Positions 1,990 through 63,910 of a DNA stretch of 64,000 bases are shown here, piece after piece. Source of the DNA: Candidatus Purcelliella pentastirinorum (GTDB taxonomy: Bacteria; Pseudomonadota; Gammaproteobacteria; Enterobacterales; Enterobacteriaceae); assembly GCF_003391335.1 (NCBI RefSeq), contig NZ_CP028374.1, forward strand, positions 186,001-250,000, read 5' to 3'. The translations under genes and the position numbers were made by a program. Every line of letters begins with the position of its first letter. The stretch's first letter is position 1. The notes under the pieces are model-generated. The model made no database searches, was not told the origin of the DNA, and saw only the letters and a program-made list of their open reading frames with translations.

Positions 1990-2751
1990 TTAAATATTAC
2001 ATTTTACGCTAACTAAAAATCCTGAATTAATAAAAGATCTTTTAGGAATATAATTAATTGAGTTACCGTTCCAATCATGCAAATAAGCACCTGCAGCTAA
2101 CAAAATAGCATGACCGGCTGCTATATCCCAAATACTAGTAGCATTAAATCTTGGATAATATTGTGCTAAACCTTCAGCTATTAAACAAAATTTCAAAGAA
2201 GAACCTGATAAAATTAAATTGTGTTTTCCTAAAATATCTAAATAATCTTTAATTCTATTATCATAATGAGATCTACTAATTATAACAGTAGGTGGATACA
2301 AATTAGAAATATTAATCCTTTCTCTATGTCCATAAGCATCTTCCTTCCATGCCTTATTTTCATATGCATAATACATTATATTAATAGCTGGAGCATAAAT
2401 AACCCCTAAAATAGGTAATCCAAATTCATTTATTAAAGCAACATTAATTGTAAATTCCCCATTTCGATTTAAAAATTCTTTTGTACCATCCATAGGATCA
2501 ATTAACCAATAATTACGCCAACTTTTACGTTTATCCCATGATAATAAATTTTCTTCTGATAAAAATGGTATATTAGGAGTATATAAACTTAATTTATTAA
2601 TTATAATATTATTAGATATATAATCAGCAATAGTAATTGGAGTACAATCATATTTATGCTTAATATATAAGCATAAATTACCATGATAAATTTTCATGAC
2701 AGCATCACCGGCAATTCTAACTATATTACATATTTTATTTAAAATATTCAT
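1990..2751 (-). CDS. cysQ: 3'(2'),5'-bisphosphate nucleotidase CysQ
   Basis: Removes the 3' phosphate from PAP, and probably PAPS, a by-product of sulfate activation. The 253-residue length matches the E. coli protein (246). Inositol-monophosphatase-fold metal motifs are present: LSEENL (about 64), DPMDGTKEF (about 86) and the C-terminal WDIAAGHA. With cysK nearby it suggests that sulfate assimilation to cysteine is at least partly retained. It can also serve general PAP detoxification. It sits beside rplI as in enterobacteria. The start has no strong Shine-Dalgarno sequence but agrees with the family N-terminus. Confidence 0.95.
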   Translation of the reverse strand: MNILNKICNIVRIAGDAVMKIYHGNLCLYIKHKYDCTPITIADYISNNIIINKLSLYTPNIPFLSEENLLSWDKRKSWRNYWLIDPMDGTKEFLNRNGEFTINVALINEFGLPILGVIYAPAINIMYYAYENKAWKEDAYGHRERINISNLYPPTVIISRSHYDNRIKDYLDILGKHNLILSGSSLKFCLIAEGLAQYYPRFNATSIWDIAAGHAILLAAGAYLHDWNGNSINYIPKRSFINSGFLVSVKCNI

Positions 2752-9036: not shown

Positions 9037-9987
9037 TTAAGATAAAAAAGAAAATAATGATGTACTTAAATAGCGTTCACCAGATGATGGTAAAATAACA
9101 ACAATATTTTTATTTAAAAATATTTTTTCTCTTTGTAACTTTAAGGCAGCATAAACAGCAGCACCGGAAGAAATACCAGATAGAATACCTTCATATTTCA
9201 TTAATCTTTTAGCCATATCCATAGCTGATTCATTAGATACCATTATAACACGATCAATTAAATTCAGATCTAAATTTTCAGGAATAAAACCTGCGCCAAT
9301 ACCTTGAATTTTATGATTACCTATTTTCATATTTTTACCAGTCATAACTTTAGTAATAATAGGAGAATCTAAAGGTTCAACAGCGACAGTAAATAAATCT
9401 TTTTTACCTTTAATATTCTTTATATATCTTGTTACTCCAGTTAAAGTACCTCCAGTACCAACACCAGCAACGAAAACATCAATAAGTCCATCAGTATCAT
9501 TCCATATTTCAGGACCAGTGGTCTTTTCATGTATATCAGGATTAGCAGGATTATTAAACTGTTGAAGAAGTAAATATTTATCAGAATTATTAGCGAACAT
9601 TTCTTCAGCTTTAGAAACAGCACCTTTCATACCATAAATACCATCAGTTAATATCAAATTAGCACCTAAAGCTTTAAGTAAATTGCGACGCTCAATTGAC
9701 ATTGAATCTGGCATAATTAAAGTCAAATTATATCCTCTAGAAGCAGATACAAAGGCTAAAGCAATTCCAGTATTACCACTTGTAGGTTCAATTAATTCTA
9801 CATTTTTATTTAAAATACCTTTATTTTCTGCATCCCATATCATATTTGCACCAATACGACATTTAACACTAAAACTAGGATTACGTGATTCAATTTTAAC
9901 AAAAATATTACCATCACCTATCCTATTCAATCTAACCAAAGGAGTGTTACCTATAGTTAAAGAATTATCCTTAAAAATATTTTTCAT
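9037..9987 (-). CDS. cysK: Cysteine synthase A (O-acetylserine sulfhydrylase)
   Basis: PLP enzyme that makes cysteine from O-acetylserine and sulfide. It has 316 residues (E. coli 323; the short C-terminal tail is trimmed). The PLP lysine is in [10 protein letters not shown] (about 42), the substrate loop is [11 protein letters not shown], the PLP phosphate loop is [10 protein letters not shown], and SSGERYLST is present. It lies upstream of ptsH as in E. coli. With cysQ it points to retained cysteine synthesis, a plausible provision product for a host (inference). Confidence 0.97.
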
Positions 9988-10136: not shown

Positions 10137-11906
<1,770 letters not shown>

Positions 11907-12185: not shown

Positions 12186-13577
12186 ATGAAAATAAAAACT
12201 AGATTCGCTCCTAGCCCTACTGGATCATTACACCTTGGAGGGGCAAGAACAGCATTATATTCTTGGTTATTCGCACAAAAACATAATGGATCTTTTATAC
12301 TTCGTTTTGAGGATACAAATAAAAAAAATTCAAAAAAATATTTTGTAAAAGAAATAATAAAAAATATGAAATGGATGGGACTAAATTGGAATAAAAATAT
12401 ATATTTTCAATCTCAAAGAATAAAAAAATATAATAAAATAATAAAAAAAATGTTAATCAATAAAAAAGCTTATAAATGCTATTGTTCAAAAGAAAGATTA
12501 AAAAATCTAAAAAAATATCAATTAAAAAATAAAATAAAACCTCGTTATGATAATTTATGTAGATACAATAAAAAAAAACTAAAAAAAAATAAATATGTAA
12601 TAAGATTTAAAAATCCTGAATTTGGAGAAGTAGTATTTAAAGATCAAATAAGAGGAAAAATAAAAATTAAAAATAAAGAATTAGATGATTTAATCATACA
12701 AAGAAGCAATGGTATACCAACATATAATTTTTGTGTAGCCATAGATGATTGGGATATGAAAATTACTCATGTAATTAGAGGTGAAGAACATATAAGTAAT
12801 ACACCAAAACAAATAAATATTTTACATGCAATAGGAATAAAACCTCCAATATATGCACATCTTCCTATTATACTTAATGAAAATGGTGAAAAGATGTCAA
12901 AAAGAAAAAATACTAAAAGTATTTTTGAATATAAAAAAAATGGTTATTTACCAGAAGCATTATTAAATTATTTAATAAGACTAGGATGGTCTCACGGTAA
13001 TAAAGAAATTTTTAATATCACTGAAATGAAAGAACTATTTAATTTAAAAAAAGTTAATAAATCAGCAAGTTTATTAAATAATAATAAATTAAAATGGTTA
13101 AATCAGCACTATTTAAAAAACTTAAATGAAAAAATAATTATAAAAAATTTTAAAAATTATATAAAATTAAATAAAATTAGATTAAATAATTTAGAAATTG
13201 AAATTTTAAAAATATTCATACCTAGATGTAAAACTTTTAAAGAAATTATAAAACAATCAAATTATTTATATAAAAATATTAAATTAAAAAAAAACGATTA
13301 CCTATGTAAAAATTCAATTAAACCATTAAAATATATAAAAAAAGAATTTTCATCAATAAAAATATGGAATGAATCAAATATCCAATTAAAAATAAATAAA
13401 ATAATAGAAAAATTAAAATTAAATATAATAGATTTAAATATGCCATTAAGAATTTCAATTACTGGACAAACAAAATCTCCAAATTTATCTTTAATTATAT
13501 CTTTATTAGGAAAACATAAAGCATTAGAAAGAATAGAAAATTCGATAAAATATATAAATAAAAACAAAATTTACTAA
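12186..13577 (+). CDS. gltX: Glutamyl-tRNA synthetase
   Basis: Class I synthetase charging tRNA-Glu. It has 463 residues (E. coli 471). The HIGH-type motif is PSPTGSLHLGGA (about 10-20) and the KMSKR motif is GEKMSKRK. The zinc-site cysteines C98, C100 and C125 are kept, but the fourth position, His127 in E. coli, reads Tyr. The C-terminal anticodon-binding domain is complete to MPLRISITGQTKSP. It is divergent from tRNA-Val with a 116-base spacer. Confidence 0.97.
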   Translation: MKIKTRFAPSPTGSLHLGGARTALYSWLFAQKHNGSFILRFEDTNKKNSKKYFVKEIIKNMKWMGLNWNKNIYFQSQRIKKYNKIIKKMLINKKAYKCYCSKERLKNLKKYQLKNKIKPRYDNLCRYNKKKLKKNKYVIRFKNPEFGEVVFKDQIRGKIKIKNKELDDLIIQRSNGIPTYNFCVAIDDWDMKITHVIRGEEHISNTPKQINILHAIGIKPPIYAHLPIILNENGEKMSKRKNTKSIFEYKKNGYLPEALLNYLIRLGWSHGNKEIFNITEMKELFNLKKVNKSASLLNNNKLKWLNQHYLKNLNEKIIIKNFKNYIKLNKIRLNNLEIEILKIFIPRCKTFKEIIKQSNYLYKNIKLKKNDYLCKNSIKPLKYIKKEFSSIKIWNESNIQLKINKIIEKLKLNIIDLNMPLRISITGQTKSPNLSLIISLLGKHKALERIENSIKYINKNKIY

Positions 13578-13715
13578 AAAATATAAAAACATTAAATATA
13601 AAATTATATTTTTAATAAAAAATACATATTTAATTAAACACTAAATAAAATTATCACAACAAATATGTTATGTTATTAATATTATTAAAATATTTAATTC
13701 ATTTCAAATGAAATA

Positions 13716-14933
13716 ATGATACAAAAAAATAAAAATAAATCAAATAAACTAATAATATTAGGACCAGCATTTATAGCAGCTATTGGTTATATAGATCCAG
13801 GAAACTTTGCTACTAATATACAAGCTGGAGCAGCATATGGATACACTCTTTTATGGGTAGTAACATTAGCTAATATAATGGCTATTTTAATACAACTGAT
13901 GTCTGCAAAATTAGGAATAGCAACAAATAAAAACCTTGCGGAACATATAAGGGATAATTTACCAAAACCAATAGTATGGTTTTATTGGATACAAGCAGAA
14001 ATAATCGCAATAGCAACAGATTTAGCTGAATTTTTAGGAGCTACAATTGGAATAAAATTAATAACAAATATAAGTTTATCTAATAGTGCAATTATAGTAG
14101 GTATATTAACATTCTTAATATTAACAATACAAAAAAAAGGAAAAAAAACCTTAGAAATAATAATAGGAATATTATTACTATTAGTAGCAACTGCATATTT
14201 AATAGAATTATTTTATTCAAAACCTAAATTATCATTATTAATAAAAGGATTAATTATCCCCTCACTACCAACTACAAATTCAGTTTTTTTATCTGCAGGT
14301 ATATTAGGTGCAACAATTATGCCACATGTCATTTATTTACATTCGTCTCTTACACAATACAAAACAAATATAGGAACAAAAAAAGAATTATATGCATCTA
14401 CTAAAATAGATATAGCTATAGCTATGACAATAGCTAGTTTCATAAATTTAGCTATGCTTACAACATCTTCTGCAGTATTTTATTATCACGGTATTACGAA
14501 AATAACAGACTTAAACCAAGCATATCTAACATTAAAACCACTATTAAATCAAGCAGCTGCTACTATTTTTGGATTAAGTTTAATAGCAGCTGGAATATCA
14601 TCAACGGTAGTAGGAACACTGGCTGGTCAAATAATGATGCAAGGATTTATTAATTTTTATATACCAGTATGGATAAGAAGAATAATAACAATTTTACCAT
14701 CTTTTATTATAATTTTAATAAAATTAAATCCAACTACTATTTTAGTCATAAGCCAGGTATTACTTAGTTTTGGAATCTCATTAGCATTAATACCATTATT
14801 ATCCTTTACTGGAAATAAAAAATTAATGGGAGAATTAGTAAACTCAAAATTATTACAAAAAACAGGATGGATTATTGTAACATTTATCATTACTATTAAT
14901 TTATACTTAATTATAAAAGAAATAATAAACTAA
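13716..14933 (+). CDS. mntH: Nramp-family Mn2+/H+ symporter MntH
   Basis: Inner-membrane proton-coupled importer of Mn2+, and less well Fe2+. It has 405 residues with 11 predicted membrane segments. Metal-site motifs are intact: DPGNFATN in TM1 and [10 protein letters not shown] in TM6. It is unusually well conserved for this genome, which suggests that manganese uptake is under selection. A perfect 7+1+7 base palindrome lies just before the ATG (13698-13712), but no recognisable MntR or Fur box is seen. Confidence 0.97.
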
Positions 14934-15002: not shown

Positions 15003-15749
15003 ATGACTACATGGGTAAAAGGTAAAATAATTAAAATATTACATTGGAATAATAGACTTTTTAGCATAATATTAAATGCACATATTAATAATTTTATAGC
15101 AGGACAATTTACAAAATTAGCAATACAAGACAATAAAAAAAAAATAATACAAAGAGCATATTCATATGTTAATTCACCAAATAATAAAAATTTAGAATTC
15201 TATATAGTTAAAATAAATAATGGTTATTTAACTACAAAATTACAAACACTAAAGATAAAAGATGAAATTTTAATCAGCAAAAATGCTATAGGAAATTTTA
15301 CAATAAAAAATATTCCAAGTTGTAAAACTTTATGGATGTTTGCTACAGGAACGGCCATAGGTCCATACCTATCAATTCTACAAACTAAAAAACAATTAAC
15401 AAAATTTGAAAATATAGTATTAGTACATGCAGTTAGAAAATATGAAGATTTTAATTATATAAAACTAATACAAAATTTACAAAATAAAAATATTAATAAA
15501 TTACACTATGTCAAAATAACAAGTAGAGAAATAAACAAAAATACAATTAATGGTCATATTCCTACATTAATAAAAAAAGGAATAATTGAAAAATATGTAA
15601 ATTTAGAAATAAATAAAAACAGTCAAATAATGTTATGTGGTAATCCAGGAATGGTTAAAGATACACAAAAATTTTTAATTGATAAAAAAAAATTAAGAAA
15701 AAGATTCAATAATAAAGAAGGAGAAATAACAACAGAATTATATTGGTAA
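15003..15749 (+). CDS. fpr: Ferredoxin/flavodoxin-NADP+ reductase
   Basis: FAD enzyme that passes electrons between NADPH and flavodoxin or ferredoxin. It has 248 residues as in E. coli. The FAD-binding RAYSYVNSP, the NADP-domain ATGTAIGPYLSIL and CGNPGMVKDTQ, and the C-terminal aromatic ELYW are all present. AAGGAACTAATAATG supplies a good ribosome site. It needs NADP(H), while nadK in this window is a pseudogene. Confidence 0.96.
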   Translation: MTTWVKGKIIKILHWNNRLFSIILNAHINNFIAGQFTKLAIQDNKKKIIQRAYSYVNSPNNKNLEFYIVKINNGYLTTKLQTLKIKDEILISKNAIGNFTIKNIPSCKTLWMFATGTAIGPYLSILQTKKQLTKFENIVLVHAVRKYEDFNYIKLIQNLQNKNINKLHYVKITSREINKNTINGHIPTLIKKGIIEKYVNLEINKNSQIMLCGNPGMVKDTQKFLIDKKKLRKRFNNKEGEITTELYW

Positions 15750-44964: not shown

Positions 44965-45861
44965 ATGTACAAAATAATAACATTTATATTATTCAGTACA
45001 GTAACACTTACCTGGGGAACTACCTGGATTGTAATGAAAATTGTAATAAAAACAATACCTCCAATTTTCGCTACAGGAATACGTTTCATAATAACAGCCC
45101 CAATTTTAATAATAATGGCAAAATTAATAAAAAAACCTTTATTATTTCCTGTAGGAAAAAAATATTTCCAAATAATAATAACTATATTTTATTTTATTAT
45201 ACCTTTTACATTAATGATATATAGCCAAAAATATATAAATTCAGGATTAGCATCAATAATTTTCGCAAATATGCCAATTGCAATATTAATTGCATCTAAA
45301 ATATTAATAAAAGAAAAAACAAATAAAAAACAAATTTTAGGATTAATAATAGCAATAACATCTTTATCAATAATATTATTTACAGAATCAAAAATAAATA
45401 CAAATATTCATTGGCAAGGATTCATATTAATCATAATATCAATTATTCTACATGCAATATTATATGTAGAAAGTAAAAAAAAATACTCCCATATATCAAT
45501 TATAACATTCAATACTATACCAACACTATGTTCTGGTATTATATTACTATTAATAGGATGGATTATTGAACATCCAATAATAACAAATTTTTCCATTAAT
45601 TCAATATTAGCTGTATTTTATTTAGGAATAATTGGAGGGGTTTTTGGTGTAATGTGTTATTTTACTTTACAAAAAAGAATTTCTACATTTAAGTCATCAA
45701 TTGTATTTATATTATTTCCATTAATATCTATTACTTTAGAAAATTACATTTATAATCATAAACTATCAACAATATCAACCCTTGCGTTAGTACCATTAAT
45801 AATAAGTATCATTATTATAATGACTCCAAAAGATTTTTATCTAAAAAAAAATACTAAATAA
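44965..45861 (+). CDS. EamA-family (DMT superfamily) permease
   Basis: Ten hydrophobic segments in two repeated halves of five, the EamA layout; 298 residues. N-terminal WGTTWIVMKIVIKTIPPIFATGIRF and GLASIIFANMPIAILI resemble the first repeat of YedA/RhaT-type exporters. Substrate unknown; homologues export amino acids or metabolites, so a role in export to the host is possible but is only inference. GGAG-type ribosome site before the ATG. Confidence 0.88.
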   Translation: MYKIITFILFSTVTLTWGTTWIVMKIVIKTIPPIFATGIRFIITAPILIIMAKLIKKPLLFPVGKKYFQIIITIFYFIIPFTLMIYSQKYINSGLASIIFANMPIAILIASKILIKEKTNKKQILGLIIAITSLSIILFTESKINTNIHWQGFILIIISIILHAILYVESKKKYSHISIITFNTIPTLCSGIILLLIGWIIEHPIITNFSINSILAVFYLGIIGGVFGVMCYFTLQKRISTFKSSIVFILFPLISITLENYIYNHKLSTISTLALVPLIISIIIIMTPKDFYLKKNTK

Positions 45862-52739: not shown

Positions 52740-53396
52740 CTATACAAAAGATATATCATGAAAATTATAATATAAATACAAGTCATCTATTGTTAATAAA
52801 GGCATAGAATATTTATCAGATAAAATTATTAATTCTGGTAATTTAGACATCGAACCATCATCATTAATTAATTCACATAACACACTAAATGGCTTTAAAT
52901 TGGCTAATTTAACTAAAGCTATTGAAGCTTCAGTATGACCTTTACGAGAGTAGAGACCTTCAATAGATGATACCAAAGGAAAAACATGACCAGGACGATG
53001 CAAATCACTAGGTTGAGCATTATCAGCAATAGCTGCACGTATAGTTGTTAATCTATCTTTAGCAGAAACACCTGTTGATACACCATGAGCAGCTTCTATA
53101 GTAACAGTAAAACTAGTACCATAAATACTAGTATTATCTTTAACCATCATAGGTAGATCTAATTGATATCTACGTTCTTCCGTAAGACATAAACAAACTA
53201 TCCCACTACCATGACGAATAGTTAACGCCATTTGTTCTATATTCATTTTCTCAGCAGAAAATATAATATCACCTTCATTTTCCCTATCCTTATTATCTAA
53301 TAAAATAACACCGTTACCATTGCATAAAGAATCTACAGCACGTTCTACCCTATATATAAAATCTTTAAAATAATAAATAAATTTCTTACTACTCAT
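52740..53396 (-). CDS. ribB: 3,4-dihydroxy-2-butanone 4-phosphate synthase
   Basis: Makes the four-carbon unit for riboflavin from ribulose 5-phosphate, which gnd in this window supplies. Active-site [29 protein letters not shown] and the metal ligand in [12 protein letters not shown] are intact. The frame opens further upstream with ATGs at 53411 and 53396; neither has a clear Shine-Dalgarno. I choose 53396 by length (218 residues, E. coli 217). The FMN riboswitch preceding ribB in E. coli is absent from the 133-base A/T spacer. Confidence 0.95.
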
Positions 53397-53556
53397 AATA
53401 AAATTAACCATAATAAAAGACAAAATAAAATAATATTAATTTGACTAAATAATAATAAACAAACAGATAAAAATAATCAAAAAAATATTCTATTATTTAA
53501 ATATAACTTTTAATAAGAAAATATATATAAAATAATCTAAACTAAAATGCCTATAT

Positions 53557-56458: not shown

Positions 56459-57865
56459 ATGTTAAAAAAACAAATTGGTATTATAGGATTAGGTATTATG
56501 GGTACTAATTTAACATTAAATTTTGAAAAAAACGGTTATCAAATTTCAATATTTAATAGAACAAAAGACAAAATTAACGAACTAATGTTAAATTATCCTA
56601 AAAAAAATATTAAACCATACTATACATTAAAAGAATTTATTTCTTCTTTAAATCATCCAAAATATATACTATTAATGGTTAAATCCGGGAAAGCAACAGA
56701 TGAGACAATTAAAAAACTTATACCATATCTTAAAAAAAAAGATATAATTATAGATGGAGGAAATACATATTTTAAAGATACAATAAAAAGATATAATAAA
56801 CTAAAAAAAATAGGCATAGATTTTATTGGAATGGGTATTTCAGGAGGTGAAGAAGGTGCTTTAAACGGAGCATCAATAATGCCTGGAGGAGATAAAACAA
56901 TATATAATAAAATATCACATTTTTTAATTAAAATAGCTGCTAAAAAAAACAACAGATCTTGCGTTGATTATATAGGACCTAATGGATCAGGACATTATGT
57001 AAAAATGATACATAATGGGATAGAATATGGAAATATGCAATTAATTTCAGAAACATATAATATACTAAAAAATATCTTATTAATTAATAATAAAAAAATA
57101 TCAAAAATATTTAATAAATGGAATAAAAAAGAACTAAATAGTTATTTAATTAAAATAACAAGAAATATATTAAAATTTAAAAATAAAAAAAATAAATATT
57201 TAATAGATTTAATTTTAGATAAAGCTGATAACAAAGGAACCGGTAAATGGGCAAGCATAAGCGCATTAGAATTAGAATCACCCTTTTCATTAATTACAGA
57301 AGCAGTATTTAATCGATATTTATCAAACTTAAAAGAAGAAAGAAAAATAGCATCAAAAAACAAAAAAATAATAAATAAAAAAATAAAAAGAATAAAAGAA
57401 AAAATATTTATAAATGATTTAGAACATGCTTTATATTTTGGTATCATAATTTCATATACTCAAGGTTTTTTACTTATGCAAAAAGCATCAAGAAAATATA
57501 AATGGAATTTGAATTATTCAGTAATAGCAAAAATATTTCAAGAAGGATGTATTATAAAAGCAAAAATATTAAATAAAATAAGATCAATATATAAAAAAAA
57601 TAACCAAATAAAAAATTTACTTTTATCCTCATTTTTTCAAAAAAAAACAAAAAAATATCAATCATCTATTAGGAATATTATAATAGAATCAATAAAACAT
57701 GGAATACCCACACCTACTTTATCATCAGCTCTATCATATTATGATAGTTATAATTCAGATAAATTACCTGCAAATTTAATACAAGCTCAAAGAGATTATT
57801 TTGGTAATCATATGTATGAAAGAACAGATAAAAAAGGTAAATTTCATACTAATTGGAAAATTTAA
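56459..57865 (+). CDS. gnd: 6-phosphogluconate dehydrogenase
   Basis: Oxidative pentose-phosphate enzyme making ribulose 5-phosphate and NADPH. It has 468 residues, E. coli length. Rossmann GLGIMGTNLTLNF, NRTKDK (NADP-phosphate contact), GISGGEEGALNG, catalytic Lys/Glu in GHYVKMIHNGIEYGNMQL, and QAQRDYFGNHMYER are intact. AAGGATTATTTTATG supplies the start. It needs NADP+ although nadK is decayed. Confidence 0.97.
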   Translation: MLKKQIGIIGLGIMGTNLTLNFEKNGYQISIFNRTKDKINELMLNYPKKNIKPYYTLKEFISSLNHPKYILLMVKSGKATDETIKKLIPYLKKKDIIIDGGNTYFKDTIKRYNKLKKIGIDFIGMGISGGEEGALNGASIMPGGDKTIYNKISHFLIKIAAKKNNRSCVDYIGPNGSGHYVKMIHNGIEYGNMQLISETYNILKNILLINNKKISKIFNKWNKKELNSYLIKITRNILKFKNKKNKYLIDLILDKADNKGTGKWASISALELESPFSLITEAVFNRYLSNLKEERKIASKNKKIINKKIKRIKEKIFINDLEHALYFGIIISYTQGFLLMQKASRKYKWNLNYSVIAKIFQEGCIIKAKILNKIRSIYKKNNQIKNLLLSSFFQKKTKKYQSSIRNIIIESIKHGIPTPTLSSALSYYDSYNSDKLPANLIQAQRDYFGNHMYERTDKKGKFHTNWKI

Positions 57866-58098: not shown

Positions 58099-59466
58099 AT
58101 GTACAACAAAATTAATATAGTTATTCTTGCAGCTGGTAATAGTAATAGGATGTTATCTGCAACTAATAAAGTATTACATAAAATAGCTAATAAACCATTA
58201 ATACAATATGTTATTGAAACATCAATAAAATTTAATCCAAAAACTATAAATATAGTTCATAAAAATGACTTAAAAGAAATTAAAAAAAAATTTAATAATT
58301 ATAATTTAAATTGGATAGTACAAAAAAAACAATTAGGTACTGGAAATGCAATAAAAAGTGCAATTCCATATATTAAAAACAACGAAAAAATTCTAATACT
58401 ATATGCTGATGTACCACTAATATCTGTAAAAACATTAAATAAACTATATAAAAATAAAGCTAAAAATGGTATTTCATTAATAACAACTACAATATCAGAT
58501 CCATCAGGATATGGAAGAATAATACGTAAAAAAAATAAAATAATTAAAATAATTGAAGAAAAAGATGCTAATAAAAAACAATTATCTATAAAAGAAATAA
58601 ATACAGGTATAATTCTTATTTCAAATATTCTATTGAAAAAATATTTGAATAGAATAAAAAATAAGAATAGACAAAAAGAATATTTTATTACTGATATTAT
58701 ATCAATAGCATATAAAGATAAATGTAATATTAAAACAATAACACCAATAAAAAATATTGAAGTTATAGGAATAAACAATAAATATCAATTATCATATTTA
58801 GAACATATTTATCAAAAAAATCAGGCAAAAAAAATATCAATGAACGGAGTAATAATAAAAGATTTAAATAAATTTAATTTAAGAGGTAATTTAAAACATG
58901 GTGAAGATGTAGAAATAGATATAAATGTAATATTAGAAGGTAAAATAAAATTAGGAAATAGAGTAAAAATTGGAGCAGGGTGTATTATTAAAAATAGTAA
59001 AATATATGATGATTGTATTATTCATCCATATACAATAATAGAATATACAACTATCTATGAAAAATGCATAATAGGTCCATTCGCATACTTACATACAAAT
59101 ACAATAATAAAAAAAAAATCAAATATAGGAAAATTCATAGAAATAAAAAAAACTACAATAAACAAAAAATCGAAAGCTGGTCATCTTTCTTATCTAGGAA
59201 ATGCAAAAATAGGTTCAAGGGTAAATATAGGTGCTGGAACAATAACATGTAACTATAACGGTTTAAATAAATTTAAAACAATAATTGAAAATAATGTATT
59301 TATTGGAGCAGATAGCCAATTAATAGCACCAATTAAAATAAAAAAAGGAGCAACAATAGCAGCAGGAACTACAGTAATAAAAAATGTAAAAAAAAATACT
59401 CTTGTATACAATAAAAAAAAAGAAAAATACAAAATAGAATGGAAAATAAAAAAAAAAAAAATATAA
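58099..59466 (+). CDS. glmU: Bifunctional UDP-N-acetylglucosamine pyrophosphorylase / glucosamine-1-P acetyltransferase
   Basis: Makes UDP-GlcNAc for peptidoglycan and lipid A. 455 residues (E. coli 456). N-terminal domain has LAAGNSNRM (Arg kept, usual GT changed to SN), LYADVPLI and the GTGNA substrate motif. The C-terminal left-handed beta-helix keeps its hexapeptides, including the catalytic His in KAGHLSYLGNAKIGSRVNIGAG. Both halves appear intact here, unlike HldE. glmS follows after 50 bases. Confidence 0.96.
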   Translation: MYNKINIVILAAGNSNRMLSATNKVLHKIANKPLIQYVIETSIKFNPKTINIVHKNDLKEIKKKFNNYNLNWIVQKKQLGTGNAIKSAIPYIKNNEKILILYADVPLISVKTLNKLYKNKAKNGISLITTTISDPSGYGRIIRKKNKIIKIIEEKDANKKQLSIKEINTGIILISNILLKKYLNRIKNKNRQKEYFITDIISIAYKDKCNIKTITPIKNIEVIGINNKYQLSYLEHIYQKNQAKKISMNGVIIKDLNKFNLRGNLKHGEDVEIDINVILEGKIKLGNRVKIGAGCIIKNSKIYDDCIIHPYTIIEYTTIYEKCIIGPFAYLHTNTIIKKKSNIGKFIEIKKTTINKKSKAGHLSYLGNAKIGSRVNIGAGTITCNYNGLNKFKTIIENNVFIGADSQLIAPIKIKKGATIAAGTTVIKNVKKNTLVYNKKKEKYKIEWKIKKKKI

Positions 59467-61350: not shown

Positions 61351-61720
61351 TGGTGGAGCTGGCGGGATTCGAACCCGCGTCCGAAAAAAACTAATATCCA
61401 AAATACTACATATTTAGTCTATATCTAAATTCATTTAAAATATGTTTATAGACAAACTATATAATAAATTAACTTTGAAATTAAATTTACGTACAATAAC
61501 CAAAGTAATTATTCATTACGTTATCTCTTTAAATAAATCCTTTATATCTTTACACACAAAGAGAATGTATAAGAAAGGAGCACAACAGCACTTTAGGCTG
61601 CTAATGCATAACCACTATTATATTTTCCAACTACTATTTTAACGGTTTTTTACAAGACCTACCGCATCTTGATATGCATTCAAAATATCAATTATCTTCG
61701 TCAAATCCATAATCAGCCCC
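61351..61720 (-). ncRNA. ssrA: Transfer-messenger RNA
   Basis: Rescues stalled ribosomes with SmpB. tRNA-like ends: 5' GGGGCTGATTATGGATTTGACG and 3' GGACGCGGGTTCGAATCCCGCCAGCTCCACCA-type arm with the acceptor G-U pair typical of alanine identity; CCA is encoded. The tag frame (61593-61631, minus) follows ATAGTA and reads GTT GGA AAA TAT AAT AGT GGT TAT GCA TTA GCA GCC TAA, i.e. VGKYNSGYALAA. The YALAA end is standard; the first codon GTT (Val) instead of GCA is unusual. Length 370 bases (E. coli 363). Confidence 0.97.
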
Positions 61721-61731
61721 AAAATATAATT

Positions 61732-62190
61732 TTAATTTCTCTTTATAAGACGTTCTTTATATCTATTCCAATCACGTTGTTTAATAGCATAACGTTTATC
61801 TTTAAGTTTCTTACCAATTCCAATCCCTATATTTAATTTACACCAAGATCTTTTCCAAAACAATGAAATTACAACTAAAGTATGTCTATTTTTATTCAAA
61901 TTACCATATAAAAATTCTAATTCATTTTTAGATAAAAGCAACTTACGATAACGACTTAAATTTAAATTATCACTTTTTATATTAAACAAAGGTTGTATAT
62001 GCAAACCTACAACAAAAGCTTCCCCATTTATTATTGTAACATAACTATTATTAATATTAACCTTATTTAATCTTAAAGACTTAACTTCCCATCCTTGTAA
62101 TACCAACCCTGCTATTAAATTATCTTTGATAAAATAATTATATAATATATTTTTATTTTTACAAATAACCTGTCTATCTAAAATCACCAT
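61732..62190 (-). CDS. smpB: SsrA-binding protein SmpB
   Basis: Binds the tmRNA tRNA-like domain and mimics the codon-anticodon helix. 152 residues (E. coli 160). GLVLQGWEVKSLR, GEAFVVGLHIQPL, KRSWCKLNIGIGIGKKLKDKR are conserved; the basic C-terminal tail (KQRDWNRYKERLIK) is kept. It lies 11 bases before ssrA, in the usual order. Confidence 0.97.
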   Translation of the reverse strand: MVILDRQVICKNKNILYNYFIKDNLIAGLVLQGWEVKSLRLNKVNINNSYVTIINGEAFVVGLHIQPLFNIKSDNLNLSRYRKLLLSKNELEFLYGNLNKNRHTLVVISLFWKRSWCKLNIGIGIGKKLKDKRYAIKQRDWNRYKERLIKRN

Positions 62191-62343
62191 ATTTAAAAAA
62201 ATAAATAAAAAAAAACTATCAAAAAAATTATGAATATAATATCACCTAAAAAAAATAAATCAATCAATAATTATATAATAAATAAATAATACATAATTAA
62301 ATATAGAAAACAAATTAATATATAAATAAATATATCTAAGATT

Positions 62344-63216
62344 AAAAATTTTTTTTAACCAATTTAATTTATTTCTTAATATATCGAAATAATTATAATT
62401 AAGAGATATATAAAATTAACACTATAATTAGTACGTTTTATTAAAATATGTAAATTATTACCAATTAATAACCTTATATCTTTGTTATCACAATAAATTT
62501 TAAATAGATATTTAGATCTATTTATGTATAAATCAATAATAATTAACACTAATAATAATTGGTCTAGTAGAAAAAATATGAAGAAAAATAGATAATATAG
62601 ATATAACATTTAATAAGGGTAAAATAATAAAATCTCCAACTGATAAAAAGTAAAAAGTAAAAACTGTAGATATAGAAACAATTAAACCATCTAATTGCTG
62701 TGAAAAAGCAAAACATTTATCTATAAAAACTTTATGTTTAATCATATGAGCAATTTTATTAGAATATAATATTAATTCATAATAATATCATAACCCAAAA
62801 AATTATTTTTTTCATATACAGATATTTCTAACATAAATCTTCTATCTAAAATAAATTTACTATCTAATACATTAATTAAATCTTGTTTATAATTAATTAA
62901 ATTTAAATCAGTTAAAAAACCTAAATCATCTTATATTTATACCAACAACTTTAATATTATATTTTAATAACACTTTTAAAACCCTTAACATACTAAAATC
63001 ACCAACAACAACTATAGCTAAATCATAAAATTTTCCTATCTTAAATAAACTTATTATCTTAATAACTCTTCTTAAAGATAATATAGAAACTGTTTTTTTC
63101 AAAAATTACTTTATACCTAAATTAATTAACCAATAAAATAGTTTTTTCATATATACCTAATGAATTAAAAAATCTAGTAATTACTATAATACCAATATAA
63201 TTACATTTGATTTCAT
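62344..63216 (-). pseudogene. nadK: NAD kinase pseudogene
   Basis: Minus-strand remnant over its full original length (873 bases, E. coli 879) in the expected place next to grpE. Reading through frameshifts gives IGIIVITRFFNSLG, DLAIVVVGDFSMLRVL, YNIKVVGIN, DLGFLTDL, RRFMLEISV, IAHMIKHKVFIDKCFAFSQQLDGLIVSI, FSTRPIIIS, YCDNKDIRLLIG and YFDILRNKLNWLKKIF, each aligning in order with E. coli NadK. The catalytic GGDGN is VGDFS, the NAD-binding TGSTAY region is VFTFYF, there are several frameshifts and in-frame stops, and the natural stop codon is lost. Not a functional gene. Confidence 0.92.
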
Positions 63217-63280: not shown

Positions 63281-63307
63281 TTGAAAGAAAAATTCTTATC
63301 CCCATTA
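63281..63307 (+). promoter_or_regulatory. Sigma-32 (heat-shock) type promoter of grpE
   Basis: TTGAAA (63281-63286), 13-base spacer, CCCCATTA (63300-63307): the textbook RpoH pattern (CTTGAAA, 13-15 bases, CCCCATnT). A run of four C in this A/T spacer is itself striking. Transcription would begin near 63314, so translation cannot start at the TTG at 63281. It implies that rpoH is kept elsewhere in the genome. Confidence 0.85.
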
Positions 63308-63325
63308 TTAAGCATAACAAATGGA

Positions 63326-63910
63326 ATGAAAATTATATACATGGATAATTTTATGGAAAAGAATAAAAATAAAGAAAAAAAAATAGAAAAAGAAAATACA
63401 AAAAATATTGAAAATAAAAATGAAAAAATAAAAAAAATAAAAAATAAAAAATTAATTAAAAAATTAAAAAAAAAATTAAAAAAGAAAAAAGAAAAAATAA
63501 AAGATATTCAATTAAGAACACAAGCAGAAATTGAAAATATTAATCGAAGAAACAATCAAAATATAGAAAAAATACATAAATTTGCACTAGAAAAATTCAT
63601 TAATGAACTATTACCAGTTGTAGATAATTTAGAAAGAACATTAAAAGCAAATAAAAAAAATAACAAAAAACTACAACCTATAATGAAGGGAATAAAACTA
63701 ACATTAAAATCACTATTTGATGTAATGTCAAAATTTGGTGTAAAAAATATTTCAGAAAGAAATGTACTTTTTAATCCTAAAATTCATCAAGCAATAATAA
63801 TGGAAAAATCAGATGAAATTGAAACTAATAAAATTATTAAAATAATGCAACCAGGATATATACTTAATGGAAGATTATTAAGACCAGCTATGGTTATAGT
63901 TTCAAAATAA
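63326..63910 (+). CDS. grpE: GrpE, nucleotide-exchange factor of DnaK
   Basis: Cochaperone releasing ADP from DnaK. 194 residues from the ATG at 63326 (E. coli 197). The frame extends to a TTG at 63281, but that is the -35 of the heat-shock promoter. ATGs at 63326, 63341 and 63353 are all possible; the last has GGA seven bases before it. N-terminal part is a low-complexity Lys/Glu/Asn coiled coil; then EIENINRRNNQNIEKIHKFALEKFINELLPVVDNLERTL, the DnaK-binding beta domain NPKIHQAI and QPGYILNGRLLRPAMVIVSK. Confidence 0.95.
   Translation: MKIIYMDNFMEKNKNKEKKIEKENTKNIENKNEKIKKIKNKKLIKKLKKKLKKKKEKIKDIQLRTQAEIENINRRNNQNIEKIHKFALEKFINELLPVVDNLERTLKANKKNNKKLQPIMKGIKLTLKSLFDVMSKFGVKNISERNVLFNPKIHQAIIMEKSDEIETNKIIKIMQPGYILNGRLLRPAMVIVSK

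Follow-up and report, generated by a model that had tools for sequence, protein, structure and literature searches.

A decayed NAD kinase gene beside retained NADP-linked enzymes in Candidatus Purcelliella pentastirinorum, and the recurrence of nadK loss in Enterobacteriaceae

How can a bacterium whose gene for NAD kinase has decayed keep enzymes that work with NADP? This question is raised by a locus of Candidatus Purcelliella pentastirinorum that lies in a stretch of 64,000 nucleotides (hereafter the window; positions 186001-250000 of contig C1, GC 22.5%) of a genome represented by a single contig of 479,855 bp that is 99.3% complete. For comparison, published values for Ca. Purcelliella of cixiid planthoppers are 481 kb, 21.7% GC and 99.25% completeness (PMC12505427 Table 1) and 481,188 bp (PMC12691624). 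A preliminary description of the window had recognised a full-length nadK fossil and had offered three ways out of the paradox, namely import of NADP(H), another NAD kinase gene, or NADP enzymes that use NAD. The fossil and its neighbours are as follows (window coordinates):

62341..63216, minus strand: pseudogene of nadK (NAD kinase) spanning the full gene, with about eight frame breaks and altered catalytic motifs
63281..63910, plus strand: grpE, ancestral neighbour (PF01025, 158 bits; tblastn with E. coli GrpE)
61732..62190, minus strand: smpB, ancestral neighbour (PF01668, 152.6 bits; 87.6% identical to the copy of the sister genome G001)
61351..61720, minus strand: tmRNA, with the tag GKYNSGYALAA
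59517..61334, plus strand: glmS, intact, 93.6% identical to the G001 copy, order conserved
58099..59466, plus strand: glmU, intact; the G001 gene was compared over part of its length only

The order grpE, nadK fossil, smpB matches that of E. coli (grpE-nadK-recN-bamE-ratB/A-smpB), and the claim that the fossil sits in its ancestral place was borne out by these flanks and by alignment with an intact nadK in G001, a genome of the same genus (contig of 483,447 bp). The comparison with a sister genome that the preliminary description had proposed has a living counterpart: the G001 gene has 293 codons (L036:228-1109), and its arrangement with smpB, glmS and glmU is that of the fossil, with grpE near the far contig end. 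Searching the contig collection for further related loci with GlmS returned three distant ones only (43-44%); in a plasmid collection, the best match to fusA was Ca. Stammera (72.6%), and gnd had no close record (best 64.3%). A frameshift-aware alignment of the fossil with the G001 gene spans the whole gene, with 223 of 286 aligned positions identical (78%, stop column included), one inserted codon and 10 irregular steps, from which we count about eight separate frame breaks. The resemblance to nadK is not due to chance, as a symbiont-trained profile built from ten NadK sequences (A1) matches the fossil with 164 bits (E 7.4e-49) and PF20143, which describes the C-domain alone, passes its cut-off of 23.7 with 37.7 bits (E 5.3e-10), while PF01513 stays at 20.4 bits, under its cut-off of 25.5, with stops present in the matched region.

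Like E. coli NadK (PF01513/PF20143), the fossil shows homology over its whole length and the same gene neighbourhood; unlike a functional NAD kinase, it has a broken frame and has lost both signature motifs. The continuous frame of about 290 codons that encodes NAD kinase is absent. GGDGN reads VGDFS, such that within GGDG the second G and D73 alone remain, and STGSTAYSL reads STVFTFYFL (TGSTAY now being TVFTFY), changes that had been reported from the window and that the alignment with the G001 gene upholds. In fixed frames the region holds 26-34 stops each and its longest open stretch is 84 codons, but following the frame through the breaks leaves the gene free of internal stop codons, and the natural stop is altered as well. 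The stops thus arise from the frame breaks, so that of the multiple frameshifts and stops described previously the frameshifts stand, whereas the stops do not count as separate lesions.

Frame breaks of this kind might be assembly errors, or slippage at the RNA level might heal them. Poly(A) slippage is known in symbionts, the nadK region is AT-rich (the GC content of the fossil is 16.7%), and runs of six or seven A occur in two of the nine frame-break contexts printed. The other seven contexts lack such a run, however, and the neighbouring genes are intact, which in the case of those examined argues against poor sequence as the apparent source of the breaks. Nor can slippage repair missense changes: the fossil is altered or broken at 14 of the 66 columns that are invariant in an alignment of ten NadKs, 11 of them by plain missense and 3 at frame breaks, compared with 56 of 227 other sites, so the invariant sites are not protected. 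Because G001 is one of the ten, we repeated the test with the columns invariant in the remaining nine, and found that the sister keeps 66 of these 72, whereas the read-through of the fossil keeps 52 (Fisher p 0.004). Changes at invariant sites lead us to reject both RNA-level rescue and assembly error, which we regard as scarcely credible, and the 11 plain missense changes corroborate the earlier argument that substitutions at catalytic motifs speak against simple sequencing error. On this comparative basis the nadK gene is dead, and the symbiont is left without a recognisable enzyme that turns NAD into NADP.

The sister also places this death in time. Relative to G001, the nadK read-through has a dN/dS of 0.389, whereas gnd (0.167), glmS (0.129), smpB (0.159), glmU (0.199, over 342 codons) and zwf (0.137) have lower values. 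Since the nadK value lies between constraint and neutrality, the gene would have died partway after the split of the two lineages, and its death most probably postdates their separation.

Does another gene supply the activity? An intact nadK elsewhere in the genome was looked for with PF01513, PF20143 and profile A1 over the whole 479,855-bp contig, and all three match the fossil only; the idea of another NAD kinase gene found no support. As controls, PF01513 matches all 14 control genomes and PF20143 12 of them, and A1 detects the intact NadK of small genomes at E below 1e-120. A NAD kinase gene is thus absent as far as homology reaches. An unrecognised kinase of the symbiont, either outside the NAD kinase family or diverged beyond recognition, might still phosphorylate NAD, a reading invited by the seemingly retained need for NADP and by frames of about 320-350 codons in several genomes that PF01513 matches weakly and that are, judging by their length, probably phosphofructokinase-like. 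We consider such a kinase unlikely, as two Pfam models and the symbiont-trained profile see the fossil alone, the same profile recognises intact NadK in small genomes, and the substitute would need to have originated repeatedly across the scattered nadK-less lineages described below.

The need for NADP is suggested by the following genes of the window:

56459..57865, plus strand: gnd, an intact gene for a 6-phosphogluconate dehydrogenase of NADP type that retains the NRT motif; dN/dS relative to the G001 copy 0.167
15003..15749, plus strand: fpr, an unbroken frame for ferredoxin--NADP reductase (303.8 bits, under the curated equivalog cut-off of 390)
52740..53423, minus strand: ribB-like DHBP synthase gene, riboflavin pathway
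1990..2751, minus strand: cysQ, sulfate assimilation
9037..9987, minus strand: cysK, cysteine synthase A

Gnd scores well above its curated cut-off. In the same genome, the NADPH-using reductase domain of RibD (outside the window) and FolD are encoded by open frames, and a tblastn search with 17 E. coli proteins against 224 kb, or 47% of the genome, matched zwf, fabG, cysI and cysH with aligned parts free of stops. Next to cysI lies cysJ, for the NADPH-binding subunit of sulfite reductase, which is 44% identical to the E. coli protein over 586 columns without a stop; cysH, cysI and cysJ are all located outside the window. In the 47% of the genome covered, fabI gave a match at the place of fabG only, and dxr, ispH, dapB, trxB, murB, gor, folA, nadD and nadE gave none. 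The open frames of gnd, fpr, zwf, ribD, cysJ, fabG and folD agree with the preliminary description in that NADP-dependent enzymes are, as predicted from sequence, retained. With cysHIJ, cysK, cysQ, ribB and ribD present, sulfate reduction and riboflavin synthesis, both of which need NADPH, seem to be kept; cysteine and riboflavin are named as the main services of Ca. Purcelliella in PMC12505427. At the left edge of the window, gyrB seems short, its frame running off the edge.

Alternatively, the remaining NADP enzymes may have become NAD users or dual-specific, such that the cell lives without NADP. One residue points this way: at position 18 of Zwf, where E. coli has a lysine that presumably helps to choose NADP, this symbiont has N (zwf at about 13150-14610 of its contig, L114). 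The same N is found in the nadK-positive sister (L148) and is thus not tied to the loss, the change having preceded it here, while K is present in 27 of 30 Zwf proteins from small genomes and T in one nadK-less genome, G183. All 30 of these Zwf proteins keep R50, to which a role in cofactor choice is ascribed, and each of 30 Gnd proteins from small genomes, 14 of them nadK-less, carries NR[S/T/N] in its NADP-binding loop, a presumed mark of NADP use. The motif comparison gave no sign of a cofactor switch in Gnd and Zwf linked to nadK loss, and the claim that the enzymes use NAD is disfavoured for these two by the kept NRT and R50 and by their dN/dS; a life without NADP strikes us as rather improbable.

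Upstream of NADP stands the supply of NAD itself. The gene for NAD-dependent DNA ligase is present in the window:

10170..11906, plus strand: ligA, NAD-dependent DNA ligase

The retention of LigA shows a continuing need for NAD+. The predicted protein has 578 amino acids, stops at about position 572 of a profile of 664 and has no BRCT match in Pfam, so it seems to lack the C-terminal BRCT part. Full-length NadE, defined by us as a PF02540 match above 190 bits (all 40 small genomes compared match at E up to 0.001), is absent from this genome and from G001; the two matches of this genome reach 31.5 and 32.9 bits and belong to frames 528 and 380 codons long, which by their length are probably GuaA and MnmA. 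Among the 40 genomes 10 encode full-length NadE, 1 of 20 without nadK (G097) and 9 of 20 with it, a difference (Fisher p 0.008) that is uncorrected for kinship and in which the nadK-positive set was hand-picked. This distribution agrees with a loss of NAD kinase that came after that of NAD synthesis.

How general is the loss? Among 392 genomes of the Enterobacteriaceae, 46 lack a match to PF20143, a tally that overstates the number of working nadK genes as it counts the genome studied here (G000) as a match through its fossil, and that rests on a profile which misses 2 of 14 control genomes. Twenty of the 46 were considered individually: 19 have sizes of 0.2-0.9 Mb, and G135 has 2.7 Mb. This last genome, 100% complete and far larger than the other 19, lacks the NadK C-domain match too. 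Our nadK-less set (n=20) consists of the 19 small genomes plus G000, with G135 and the other 26 genomes left out, and was set against 20 small nadK-positive genomes, hand-picked rather than random. Besides G000, six of the nadK-less genomes are single contigs (G033, G101, G107, G151, G155 and G174; G101 is 84% complete), whereas in assemblies of several contigs a gap could hide the gene. Profile A1 found no nadK in the 19 nadK-less relatives, 17 of which have no match at E up to 1; the weak matches of the other two (G183, best E 0.009; G076, 0.18) lie in frames of 326 and 322 codons. PF01513 found none in nadK-less G007, G030 and G033, and a single match below cut-off, in a 332-codon frame, in G011. 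In contrast to these relatives, where no remnant was seen with A1, the remnant of the symbiont studied here is still full length.

The nadK-less genomes (n=20) hold gnd in 14 cases, zwf in 14, full-length folD in 16 and the ribD reductase in 8, compared with 16, 16, 20 and 15 in the nadK-positive ones (n=20); the FolD count leaves out G107 (43.8 bits, over the cut-off, with fragments that look decayed) and G101 (22.8 bits, under it). At least one of the four is kept by 18 of 20 nadK-less genomes, and the two with none, G033 and G101, are what one would predict were cells free to give up NADP use altogether. In nadK-less G107 folD looks decayed while zwf is kept, perhaps a stepwise dropping of NADP use. 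The zwf of nadK-less G030 has a stop inside the aligned stretch. The RibD matches of G097 and G217 contain one TGA each, though the open frames have 387 and 402 codons.

Four genera hold both nadK states (G000/G001, G097/G217, G116/G228 and G155/G254). On a quick tree of Gnd and Zwf from 31 genomes, 15 of them nadK-less, nadK state changes 13 times, at least 7 of these changes being forced by starred branches, and its scatter equals that of shuffled labels; the tree is weakly supported (of its 28 inner branches 9 are starred), the composition of ten rows is odd, G116 and G228 do not group together, and the nadK-positives were hand-picked. A single loss of nadK is hard to hold, rough as the numbers are. 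Such scatter also bears on the thought that the host provides the enzyme, a native or bacteria-derived host NAD kinase being delivered into the symbiont or acting at the surrounding membrane. Some insect symbionts are known to receive proteins from their hosts, but repeated independent losses of nadK would require the host enzyme to be targeted repeatedly, and we judge this route very unlikely.

We favour uptake instead: in our estimate it is somewhat probable that the symbiont obtains NADP(H) from outside, most likely from the host bacteriocyte cytosol, via a putative carrier. In the probable order of events, NAD synthesis would have been lost first, with NAD taken up in its place; the uptake route would also have admitted NADP, or host NADP would have become available, and selection on nadK would then have lapsed. 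Ready-made NADP(H) would enter from the bacteriocyte cytosol, a co-symbiont being a less likely source, and would feed a cycle in which Zwf and Gnd reduce NADP+ and CysJ, RibD, FabG, FolD and Fpr use the pool, provided that these predicted enzymes are active. NADP is recycled rather than consumed, so uptake need only offset dilution by growth and breakdown. As a counterpoint, the open frames of the NADP enzymes could reflect a lag, if nadK died recently.

Of the three readings put forward at the outset, import is the best supported, but the search brought no carrier to light. The nucleotide transporter check that had been proposed was run with PF03219 (NTT family) and matched none of 40 genomes, but all 14 controls were silent too, which makes the result uninformative either way; with this one family searched, no NADP carrier was found. 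An EamA-family transporter (44965-45861, 151.6 bits) encoded in the window is a candidate for cofactor uptake. The bacterial carriers described in PMC8231866 are for NAD+, and the yeast carrier Ndt1p is stated there not to transport NADP. The open-licence literature that we searched yielded no description of a symbiont NADP carrier.

A close known parallel is Chlamydia trachomatis, which according to PMC3136453 lacks both NAD synthesis and NAD kinase and is inferred to import NAD(P), and whose carrier Npt1 takes up NAD (PMC10995303). Like the symbiont studied here, C. trachomatis is obligately intracellular, lacks NAD kinase and presumably takes up NAD(P) (PMC3136453 and PMC4518329); unlike it, our symbiont is probably a mutualist, belongs to the Enterobacteriaceae and has a loss that is datable by a fossil and a sister. 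C. trachomatis has Npt1 for NAD, whereas an NTT-type carrier was not found here, where the controls were silent too. A 2015 review (PMC4518329) and the introduction of a 2022 paper (PMC9208755) single out Chlamydia as the exception that lacks NAD kinase, although the review remarks on some disagreement with its own table of annotations. For Buchnera aphidicola of the aphid Sipha maydis, a 2025 paper (PMC12013274) states that the enzymes interconverting NAD and NADP are lost and that both must be imported from its partners, so the idea that an insect symbiont imports NADP has been published for one Buchnera. That Buchnera resembles our symbiont as an enterobacterial insect symbiont of the same inferred state, but the statement, in the passage concerned, is a single sentence from metabolic reconstruction, with no remnant gene, intact sister or survey. 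Elsewhere, ppnK is reported to be present in a louse Sodalis (PMC4959230) and PpnK to be expressed in a tick symbiont (PMC8754119); ppnK was surveyed in 944 proteomes in a study whose passages on it do not discuss loss in symbionts (PMC5932413), and NADK evolution is treated in PMC6675116. We found neither a survey of nadK loss in symbionts nor an account of this gene in the open-licence literature that we searched.

That a reduced genome loses genes is nothing unusual. What is noteworthy here is a datable dead nadK beside a retained NADP cycle, together with the recurrence of the loss, which makes the case less singular and more general. The readable fossil and the intact sister gene allow the loss to be dated, and having a dead copy in G000 and a living one in G001 opens the matter to testing. 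Where Chlamydia is the named exception in the sources above, this symbiont and 19 relatives lack nadK, and 18 of these 20 keep NADP-linked enzymes. It is conceivable, though we put it forward tentatively and as somewhat short of probable, that insect symbionts among the enterobacteria lose nadK regularly and repeatedly, in most cases once NAD synthesis has gone, and that their NADPH pathways, including those by which they feed the host cysteine and riboflavin, run on NADP(H) imported ready-made. If NADP is indeed imported, an NADP carrier would have to exist, and host control over the redox state of the symbiont would reach deeper.
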